The notes under the pieces were generated by a model, which was not told the origin of the DNA, searched no databases, and saw nothing but the letters and a program-made list of their open reading frames with translations. Positions 10,433-49,371 of a DNA stretch of 64,000 nt are shown piece by piece. The position numbers and the translations under genes are program-made. Position 1 is the stretch's first letter; every line of letters begins with the position of its first letter. The stretch lies in contig NZ_CP007128.1 in the NCBI RefSeq assembly GCF_000522985.1, positions 4,758,220 through 4,822,219 of the forward strand, in the 5' to 3' direction. This DNA comes from Gemmatirosa kalamazoonensis (lineage in GTDB: Bacteria > Gemmatimonadota > Gemmatimonadetes > Gemmatimonadales > Gemmatimonadaceae).

Positions 10433-10496
10433 GCTGCGTGGCTGCGTGGCTGCGTGCCTGCGTGACGGGACCCACGCAGCCGCGCAGCCACGCAGC
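10433..10496. terminator. Long hairpin between convergent genes (bidirectional terminator)
   Basis: A 24-bp stem (10433-10456 with 10473-10496, one mismatch) around a 16-nt loop sits exactly between the convergent S9 peptidase and amylase stops. The arms are made of iterated GCTGCGTG units. There is no clear U-tract, so it may act as a structural terminator for both transcripts. Confidence 0.65.
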
Positions 10497-12499: not shown

Positions 12500-12720
12500 T
12501 CTCGCGCGGAGGCGCGGAGGACGCGGAGCACGGCCTCTTTGAGTCGAACCGCAGAGGACGCAGAGGGCCGCAGAGAAACCTCAACTGCTCTTGACCACGG
12601 AGGGCACAGAGGACACGGAGAAAACCAACTGTAGCGGTACTGCTTCGTGTCCTCCGTGCCCTCTGTGGTTCAAAACCAACAAGAGGCAGTGCTCCGCGTG
12701 CTCCGCGTCTCCGCGTGAGA
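12500..12720. repeat. Nested palindromic intergenic repeat block
   Basis: This fills most of the 368-bp gap 12363-12730. An outer imperfect inverted repeat (12500-12541 with 12677-12720, built from gcggaggacgcggagcac-like units) encloses an inner one (12591-12617 with 12645-12673, gaggacacgg-like units, two mismatches). A 32-nt segment at 12544-12575 is identical to the left arm of the hairpin at 49271. Short open frames crossing the block are low-complexity and I do not call them genes. It belongs to a dispersed repeat family with further members at 21269 and 49271. Confidence 0.8.
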
Positions 12721-21268: not shown

Positions 21269-21305
21269 CTCACGCGGAGCCGCGGAGGACGCGGAGAACA
21301 CCTGA
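21269..21305. repeat. Solitary arm of the dispersed 'gaggacgcggag' repeat
   Basis: Just after the response regulator stop lies a single unpaired copy of the cacgcggagccgcggaggac-type sequence that forms the outer arms at 12500-12720. It lies between the convergent response regulator and VOC genes. Confidence 0.6.
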
Positions 21306-39719: not shown

Positions 39720-41383
39720 GGGCGGCGTGTCGCGCGCACGAGCTCCAGCACGACGCCCGCGCGCGGCGCGAGCGTGTCGAGCGGTACGTAGCCCTGCACC
39801 GAGCCGTCGGCCCGCACGACGAGCGGCGCCGCAGGACCGTTGCCTAACAGTGCGCGCACGGCCCACCGCCCCGGTGGCAGCGTGCCGGTGGCCGCGGACA
39901 GCGTCACGCCGCGGCGCGCCGTCGAGTCGAGGTTCGCGACGACGAGCACGACGCGATCACCGGCGCGGCGCACGTACGCGGCGACGGCGTCGTCCGAGGC
40001 GACGAGCGGCGCGAGCGTGCCGCTCGCCAGCGCGGCGTCGCTCGCGCGCAGGTGGATGAGCCGCCGGTAGAGCGAAAGCAGCGACGACGAGTCGCGCTCC
40101 TGCGCCTCCACGGTCATCGCGAGCGAGTCGTCGGCCAGCCGCTCCCACGGCGTGCCGCGCGTGAAGCCCGCCGCGTGCGACGCGCTCCACTGCATCGGCG
40201 TGCGGATGCGCGGGTCCGGCTTCGCGCCGAGCATGCCGATCTCCTCGCCGTAGTAGACGTACGGGAGGCCGGGGAGCGTGAGCAGCAGCAGCGCCGCGAC
40301 CTTCGCCTTCGCGACGTCGCCGCCGAGCTCCGTGCGCGTGCGCGGCTGGTCGTGGTTGCGAAGGAACGGCGAGAATCGCTCGGCCGGCCTGACGGCCTGC
40401 TGCAGACGGAGCGCGGGCGCGAGCACGCCGCGCGCGTCGCCGCGCCTCACGCCCGCGATCAGGCTGTCGGCGATCTCGAACGCGAAGTAGCCGGTGAGCT
40501 GGTCGGGGTAGTACGACAGCAGCGTGTCGGTGGGAAAGAACACCTCGCCCACCGTGTAGCCGCCGAGCGACCGCACGTAGTCGCCGTACGTGTGCAGCAC
40601 GCGGTGCGTGCCCGGGCTGTTCTGCGCGCGTCCCGGCTCCTCGACGAGATACGGCACCGCGTCGAGGCGGAAGCCGTCGACGCCCATGTCGCGCATCCAG
40701 AAGCGCGCGATGCGCTTCGCCTCGTCGAGCACGGGCGTGCGGACGTAGTTCAGATCGGGCATGCCGACCCAGAACAACCCGTAATACCACTCGTCGCGCA
40801 CCGGCGACTTGTGCCACGGCTGGCTCCCCGCCCACGGCCCCGGGGCCCCCGGCCCGCCCTGCGACCAGCGGTACCACGCGCGGTACGGCGACGCGGTGTC
40901 GCGCAGCGCGGCCTGGAACCACGGATGCTCGCTCGACGTGTGATTCAGCACCATGTCGACGAGCACCTTGATGCCCCGCCCGTGCGCCGCGGCGACGAGC
41001 CGCTTGAAGTCGTCGTTCGTGCCGTAGTCCTTCTCGACGCGATAGTAGTCGCTGACGTCGTAGCCGTGGTAGCTCGGCGACTCCGCCACCGGCATGAGCC
41101 AGATGCAGCGCGCGCCGAGCCGCTGCACGTAGTCGAGCTTCTGCGTCAGCCCGTTCAGATCCCCGATGCCGTCGCCGTCGCTGTCGTAGAACGAGCGGAC
41201 GAAGATCTCGTAGCACGTCGCGCCGCGGGTCCACGTTGGGACCTGCGAGTCCGCCGGCGGCGCGAGCGTCGTCGCCGCCAGGGCGAGCCACAGCCACCGA
41301 AAGAGTGAGCGTGGAGCGTGGAGCGGGGAGCGTGGAGCGCCCGTCGCTGCCACGCTCCACGCTCCTCGCTCCACGCTCGACAT
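39716..41383 (-). CDS. Secreted GH13 alpha-glucosidase/amylase
   Basis: About 555 residues if the ATG at 41383 is used. The signal-peptide core LFRWLWLALAATTLA is preceded by about 25 residues encoded by an inverted repeat, so the true start is doubtful. GH13 regions: DMVLNHTSS, GFRLDAVPYL (nucleophile), TVGEVFFP (acid/base) and FLRNHDQPRT; DPRIRTPMQW and AGFT downstream resemble trehalose-synthase or oligosaccharide-type GH13 enzymes. It likely trims maltooligosaccharides in the periplasm. It sits between susD-like (20 nt away) and a second amylase (4-nt overlap), hence one operon, perhaps with the hairpin at 41314 acting as an attenuator. Confidence 0.87.
   Translation of the reverse strand: MSSVERGAWSVAATGAPRSPLHAPRSLFRWLWLALAATTLAPPADSQVPTWTRGATCYEIFVRSFYDSDGDGIGDLNGLTQKLDYVQRLGARCIWLMPVAESPSYHGYDVSDYYRVEKDYGTNDDFKRLVAAAHGRGIKVLVDMVLNHTSSEHPWFQAALRDTASPYRAWYRWSQGGPGAPGPWAGSQPWHKSPVRDEWYYGLFWVGMPDLNYVRTPVLDEAKRIARFWMRDMGVDGFRLDAVPYLVEEPGRAQNSPGTHRVLHTYGDYVRSLGGYTVGEVFFPTDTLLSYYPDQLTGYFAFEIADSLIAGVRRGDARGVLAPALRLQQAVRPAERFSPFLRNHDQPRTRTELGGDVAKAKVAALLLLTLPGLPYVYYGEEIGMLGAKPDPRIRTPMQWSASHAAGFTRGTPWERLADDSLAMTVEAQERDSSSLLSLYRRLIHLRASDAALASGTLAPLVASDDAVAAYVRRAGDRVVLVVANLDSTARRGVTLSAATGTLPPGRWAVRALLGNGPAAPLVVRADGSVQGYVPLDTLAPRAGVVLELVRATRRP
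41314..41378. repeat. 26-bp hairpin of 7-bp GAGCGTG units at the GH13 start
   Basis: Arms 41314-41339 and 41353-41378 match at 25 of 26 positions and consist of iterated GAGCGTG/CACGCTC units. The hairpin lies between the SusD stop and the GH13 signal peptide and covers the first codons of the only plausible reading frame start. It looks like a dispersed intergenic repeat and may act as a terminator or attenuator after susD. Confidence 0.75.
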
Positions 41384-49235: not shown

Positions 49236-49270
49236 CCTGACCGCGCGCGGAGACGCGGTTCCTCCTCGTA

Positions 49271-49350
49271 TCGAACCGCAGAGGACGCAGAGGGCCGCAG
49301 AGGACTGCAATCGTTGTCCTCTGCGGCCCTCTGCGTCCTCTGCGGTTCGA
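49271..49350. repeat. Perfect 34-bp inverted repeat (dispersed palindrome family)
   Basis: Left arm 49271-49304 and right arm 49317-49350 are exact complements around a 12-nt loop. The left arm shares 32 identical nt with 12544-12575. The repeat lies between the convergent small secreted protein and DUF4199 genes, where it can serve as a bidirectional terminator. Confidence 0.9.
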
Positions 49351-49371
49351 TTCCAGAGTCAGCGATGTCGC

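Follow-up and report, generated by a model that had tools for sequence, protein, structure and literature searches.

Families of short hairpins dispersed in the genome of Gemmatirosa kalamazoonensis are linked, family by family and across phyla, to genes of two protein families, GxxExxY (PF13366) and PF05635. One feature of the window (the whole 64,000-nucleotide stretch analysed, positions 4758220–4822219 of a 5,311,527-base replicon in a genome of 7.48 Mb) lies at 12500–12720. It is probably made up of three non-autonomous hairpin elements, stacked one within another; gene-bearing members of their class carry GxxExxY or PF05635 between such arms, and the encoded proteins would act in trans, each on its own family. 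From sequence comparisons we infer that, of the candidates for spreading the hairpins, these genes are the strongest. To our knowledge, the short-period intergenic palindromes found in many bacterial genomes have no accepted source. A link between arm family and gene points to a likely function for two protein families without an assigned role, and makes the origin of such repeats testable.

A stack of palindromes

The feature consists of a palindrome of family C placed around one arm of a family A palindrome, followed by a palindrome of family B; the right arm of A is absent (Table 1). The arms of C are 40 nt long and 90% complementary, those of B 27 nt long and 89% complementary, which bears out the nested palindromes with two types of arm described in an earlier note on this DNA. 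The note had also reported an extra 32-nt unit recurring further along the window: the two are the same letter for letter, the second copy lying within the left arm of an intact A hairpin. Its statement that the mismatches of the inner arms are all C/T differences that would pair as G-U holds for two of the three (G-T, hence G-U in RNA of the + strand); the third is A-C. Selection for RNA structure, suggested on the same grounds, finds no backing in the wider set of compared arm pairs, which contains 28 G-T, 18 A-C and 18 other mismatches: since 28:18 does not differ from an even split (p 0.18), the mismatches give no hint that one RNA strand has been under selection.

The missing right arm of A is best read as lost by deletion, because AAGAGGCAGT, directly after which that arm would be expected, runs straight into the C arm. 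At C3:145.3 kb two copies of GGCAGT lie around the A right arm, and the loss perhaps occurred between two such copies.

Table 1. Palindrome arms and hairpins of the window (numbered from its first base) and GxxExxY genes of the same genome (positions prefixed C2 or C3).
Feature	Position	Strand	Setting	Basis
Outer palindrome, left arm, family C (GCGGAG words)	12500–12539	+		arm comparison
Single 32-nt arm of middle palindrome, family A	12544–12575	+	partner arm missing	same letters as 49271–49302
Inner palindrome, left arm, family B (CACAGAGG / CACGGAGG words)	12594–12620	+		arm comparison
Inner palindrome, right arm, family B	12643–12669	-		arm comparison
Outer palindrome, right arm, family C	12681–12720	-		arm comparison
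AAGAGGCAGT, which precedes the A right arm in other copies	12681–12690	+		inferred from comparison with other copies
Family L hairpin (GCTGCGTG words)	10433–10496	.	no linked gene found for L	hairpin census
Single family C arm	21271–21287	+		word scan (lone C arms not trusted)
Family J hairpin (GAGCGTG words)	41307–41378	.		gene-bearing J element outside the window, C2:598 kb
Complete family A hairpin	49270–49351	.	degenerate C-like arm just before (49244)	36/36 arm bases paired
GxxExxY, split over two frames	C3:993804		between two A hairpins	flanks by eye
GxxExxY, domain middle missing	C2:1535069		between two C hairpins	flanks by eye
GxxExxY	C2:5013050		between D/E hairpins	flanks by eye
GxxExxY	C2:905456		between GACAGGATG hairpins (F)	flanks by eye
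GxxExxY	C3:1092491		between GGACTGAAG hairpins (H)	flanks by eye
GxxExxY	C3:437285		one GCGGATC hairpin (G), one side only	flanks by eye
GxxExxY	C2:2514178		one palindrome	flanks by eye

A search of the window against Rfam gave zero matches at the gathering score; microRNA hairpin models retrieved at a relaxed E were all below their own cut-offs and were taken as chance hairpin resemblance.

Copy number, nesting and genomic position

A 20-mer of family A, allowed up to three mismatches, matches at 229 + 229 places in the genome (0 and 1 for the reversed control). Against the three loci known to the earlier note, this is an increase of two orders of magnitude. A census of hairpins (arms of at least 20 nt with at least 90% identity) in a 1.68-Mb sample, half of which was chosen around known A copies and which is thus not random, returned 228 hairpins, compared with one in a mononucleotide-shuffled sample. 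Thirteen clusters account for 209 of the 228; most are built of short iterated words, and one, with two members, looks like chance. In the same sample families A, B and D gave zero control matches and family J 53 core matches against none in the control. Lone C arms are not trusted, because the short C pattern yields 42 control matches for 78 real ones. A first, loose word scan was dropped, its control matches being nearly as many as the real ones.

The suggestion that one element had been inserted within another is upheld by the order of the families: in all 33 clusters containing at least two families (partial clusters included) the order is C outside A outside B or D. Family E is another inner family, also found inside A loops. 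The nesting suggests successive waves of insertion. In this genome the GxxExxY genes associated with C and A are degraded and that of E is open, which fits such waves, although three cases prove little. Divergence between arms (C 0.052, A 0.020, B 0.075, D 0.046) does not follow the nesting, and an age order derived from it was rejected, the values being out of step.

Hairpins avoid genes: 43 of 218 fall inside called genes compared with 2843 of 3978 random points (edges omitted), the calls being crude, with a coding fraction of 0.73. The 89 clusters of families A, B, C and D favour the 3′ ends of genes. Convergent neighbours surround 31, tandem neighbours 43 and divergent neighbours two; 10 lie inside called genes and three at edges; the convergent excess among the 76 intergenic clusters has p 2e-5. 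This is the distribution expected if the hairpins were terminators or mRNA stabilisers, selected for a host function at gene ends. As an account of their origin we regard this as unlikely, though the hairpins may have such a role secondarily: presence and absence vary at the level of species inside one genus, the linked genes are family-specific, the palindromes nest, no excess of G-U is seen, and the stack at 12500–12720 itself appears, from predicted gene starts, to lie between a - strand gene and a + strand gene.

No target duplication is visible at the arm ends of the 228 hairpins: direct repeats of at least 4 nt occur at 12, with 8.6 expected, and the arm ends may not be the true ends of the element.

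GxxExxY genes between the arms

The genome of G. kalamazoonensis contains nine stretches matching PF13366, at seven loci (Table 1), and arm families A, C, E, F and H go with these genes. In a second genome (G236) two B-like arms enclose a 136-aa frame matching GxxExxY/TIGR04256 at 4.7e-43. Linked genes either occupy the loop of a single hairpin or are flanked by a pair of hairpins from one family, and gene-less hairpins with the same word are scattered through the same genome.

Inverted arms were scored by comparing the 300 nt to the left of a gene with the reverse complement of the 300 nt to its right, using a threshold of 34, the pooled 99% point of pseudo-gene controls placed at the same loci. 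About 1% of 2000 random places in the sample from this genome reach the threshold (99% point 35, maximum 111), and among 908 genes called there 15 score above it, two of which belong to the GxxExxY or PF05635 families. Five of the seven GxxExxY loci of this genome score above 34. With these seven included, 21 of 37 loci from Gemmatimonadota do so (controls 0/110); among the 16 below threshold some have arms that are visible by eye. In genomes reached through loci with the B arm the figure is 29 of 30 (controls 0/95), two of the loci being archaeal. Among 117 cyanobacterial genomes around one such genome (G320), drawn regardless of arms, 26 contain PF13366, and 24 of 29 loci exceed the threshold (controls 1/105). 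Over these three sets together, 74 of 96 GxxExxY loci have inverted arms. The loci tested were the best-scoring ones fetched and not a random draw (30 from genomes reached through B arms, 30 for PF05635, and 30 from Gemmatimonadota besides the seven); same-locus controls for the GxxExxY and PF05635 tests together reached threshold in 2 of 397 cases.

Plasmid copies differ, with two of seven GxxExxY genes above threshold and five below. One of the latter, from a Sphingomonas plasmid, has arms visible inside the annotated frame; two of the other four are flanked by direct repeats instead. Strong flanking repeats that are direct, not inverted, were seen at the plasmid genes L290 and L293. In the Sphingomonas case (L289, 1450–1880) the GxxExxY element has fabD on one side and fabG on the other, within a cluster of fatty-acid genes, and an ATG follows the left arm directly; on a plasmid of Bacteroides finegoldii (L287, 1440–1920) a GxxExxY gene lies between CACAGAGGACGCAGAGG-type arms, close to families A and B. 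At L180 (1487–1530) the GxxExxY frame begins at the outer edge of the arm, and the arm word therefore encodes the first residues (HHRGTEGTEE).

PF05635 genes and the tally of families

The second gene family, PF05635, which comprises four-helix proteins of 23S rRNA intervening sequences, shows the same arrangement. Inverted arms exceed 34 at 28 of 30 PF05635 loci from several phyla (controls 1/87) and, in G. kalamazoonensis, at seven of the eight loci examined among nine matches; controls at seven of the examined loci gave 2 of 21. At the eighth (C2:1503900) no arms were found. The arm words are GAGGGCA, GAGCGTG, GGGACTC, GGCGGGACGAT, CGGCGGCGCTGAT and two more minor words, and arm families J, M, N, P and Q go with PF05635; the J copy at C2:598 kb carries such a gene. 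The Pfam search of the protein gave a bAvd match below cut-off. Of 49 chosen genomes 40 contained PF05635, among them every one of the 20 Gemmatimonadota chosen, whereas none of 14 control genomes did; this is not a test of association, because the genomes were chosen for repeats or for GxxExxY.

Overall, a gene lies between or beside the arms in 10 of the 12 multi-copy families of the census (A, B and C counted as one, the chance-like pair omitted). The exceptions are L and R, for which this genome yielded no linked gene; the gene of G is one-sided. Taken by itself, family B yielded none either, and D may at best have the gene of E in common with that family.

Distribution among genomes

The B word (three mismatches allowed) has at least eight matches in 20 of 298 genomes of Gemmatimonadota, and its number differs between species of a single genus (g14), with 74, 153, 11 and 0 matches. 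PF13366 is present in all 20 of these repeat-rich genomes and in 76 of the 278 others (Fisher 3e-11, kinship uncorrected, with the cut of eight chosen after the table was seen). Further afield, exact matches to the 29-nt B arm were found in 54 stretches that, from the titles of the records, belong to Acidobacteria, Planctomycetes, Cyanobacteria, Myxococcales, Bacteroidia, Chloroflexota, Proteobacteria, Verrucomicrobiales and Methanosarcinales, among others. Forty of the 54 loci were searched, and PF13366 was found in 35 of the 40 genomes reached.

Such a distribution bears on two other explanations. The arms consist of tandem words, and longer direct arrays exist (at L102 and L116 the 9-nt word ACACAGAGG is repeated in direct arrays of well over three units), so that slippage in replication or repair could have made iterated palindromes in place, separately in each genome. 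The same exact arm in many phyla and archaea, the fixed nesting order and the linked genes make this most improbable. Equally improbable are REP/REPIN-type elements moved by RAYT, a Y1 tyrosine transposase, the driver the earlier note proposed looking for. The palindromes are REP-like in being short, extragenic and of high copy number, in preferring gene 3′ ends and in leaving no visible target duplication; nevertheless, Y1_Tnp (PF01797) has no match in the G. kalamazoonensis genome at E ≤ 0.001, Y1 occurs in four of the 20 repeat-rich genomes against 73 of the 278 others (no association in the 298), and such arms are absent from all four Y1 loci examined.

A single genome (G146) offered a prediction: that the arm flanking its only GxxExxY gene recurs dispersed in the same genome. 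It does. The arm word matches 38 times in G146, including once at a distance of 17 bases from the GxxExxY domain match, and no more than 12 times in any other genome of the set of 298; G022 has 10 matches, one beside its own GxxExxY gene. PF13366 is present in four of the five genomes with at least four matches. The exception, G226, has 12 matches of the CACGGAG type, and GxxExxY is absent. Its PF05635 locus (L351) has very long inverted flanks with a score of 228; this gene does not explain the CACGGAG-type repeats, because the part of the flanks inspected shows ATTCGGCC-type words.

In another genome (G207; L209, C24, C53 and C251) many arm pairs are inside out, with GGTT/AACC ends toward the loop, the opposite of their orientation in G000.

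The GxxExxY protein

From 99 loci 98 frames were obtained, of which 93 contained the GxxExxY motif and were aligned (five were dropped). The residues D, K and Q are conserved in 100% and the catalytic E in 98%, with the E-x-K pattern present; the G, E and Y of the motif itself carry no weight as evidence, because the set was chosen by that motif. The protein matches PDDEXK_3 at 2e-41 in Pfam, with a Cas4 match at 3e-5. The structure model, which is confident (pLDDT 94.9), has its best VIA match, Z 9.6, to 4ic1 (SSO0001), which we take to be a Cas4; the next match is 7.9 and the rest lower, values of Z 7 to 8 being common for models without a clear match. Weaker structural matches are to chains of Cas4 and of the Holliday-junction resolvase Hjc in VIA and, among weak Foldseek rows, to lambda exonuclease. 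Foldseek returned no PDB match at E ≤ 0.001, and a sequence search of the PDB with the GxxExxY profile gave a single match, E 0.35. Conserved residues, profile and model together indicate that the protein is a predicted PD-(D/E)XK nuclease with a restriction-endonuclease-like fold.

A possible mechanism of spread

The GxxExxY and PF05635 genes might be passengers, carried by, or settling by preference in the loops of, hairpins that another host enzyme, or one since lost, spreads. We consider this the main rival, possible yet a good deal less probable than spread by the gene products themselves. For B, L and R the G. kalamazoonensis genome shows no linked gene, and two unrelated proteins in the same type of site fit a common outside mechanism. 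Passengers, however, would have to have come to occupy different arm families, some ten in one genome; moreover the active site of GxxExxY is preserved across 93 sequences drawn from many phyla, and the presence of PF13366 tracks the number of repeats.

If the gene products spread the hairpins, a GxxExxY or PF05635 protein would act in trans on its own arm family. Once the arms had become single-stranded, or a cruciform had been extruded, the nuclease would cut at the hairpin, and a hairpin copy would be placed in intergenic DNA or in the loop of an older hairpin. Gene-less copies would be remnants left after loss of the gene from the loop, comparable to miniature elements in relation to insertion sequences. 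At 12500–12720, C would have come first, A would have entered the C loop and B the A loop, and the right arm of A would later have been deleted.

The wider proposal is of a new and very widespread class of mobile DNA without a known transposase: iterated-word hairpins spread in trans by the tiny PD-(D/E)XK protein GxxExxY, encoded by the element, or, in a second lineage, by the Avd-like four-helix protein PF05635, each reading its own word. We hold the case for and against this to be evenly balanced. If true, it would account for many of the intergenic palindromes of short period in environmental bacteria and in some archaea; and if the proteins move the hairpins, few agents of DNA spread would be smaller than this nuclease, in which no transposase domain is known.

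Comparison with known systems

Our search of the open PMC literature found no link of GxxExxY or PF05635 genes to dispersed palindromes (the PDDEXK_3 query was uninformative). The small dispersed repeats of Nostoc are small palindromic repeats that nest, as the palindromes described here do, and are not known to have a linked protein.

The heptamer repeats of Xanthomonas and Nostoc are intergenic 7-nt iterated words, in Xanthomonas often as convergent inverted pairs; no general association with mobile elements was found for them (PMC4692102). The resemblance lies in iterated short words in intergenic DNA and in inverted pairs, and we predict a link to PF05635 for these repeats too.

Intervening sequences of 23S rRNA contain an S23/IVP gene in a stem loop formed by terminal inverted repeats, and a mobile origin has been proposed (PMC4990558). 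The PF05635 genes similarly lie in the loop of a hairpin, a likeness confined to the 28 of 30 PF05635 loci; the family-specific iterated arms and dispersed gene-less copies set the present elements apart.

REPtrons, as described in PMC3733652, comprise dispersed REP or REPIN palindromes and a RAYT gene flanked by the same palindromes. The hairpins resemble them in being palindromes dispersed outside genes, in having a gene with copies of the palindrome on both sides and in the 3′ end preference; they differ in that the gene is GxxExxY or PF05635, not Y1, and in arms mostly of iterated words and in ordered nesting. The same paper describes TIRtrons, in which RAYT-like tyrosine transposase genes (TIRYTs) lie between long terminal inverted repeats (PMC3733652). 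Here the genes are PF13366 and PF05635 and no tyrosine transposase was found in the G. kalamazoonensis genome; yet, as in TIRtrons, a small gene lies between long inverted repeats, and the repeats are also dispersed elsewhere.
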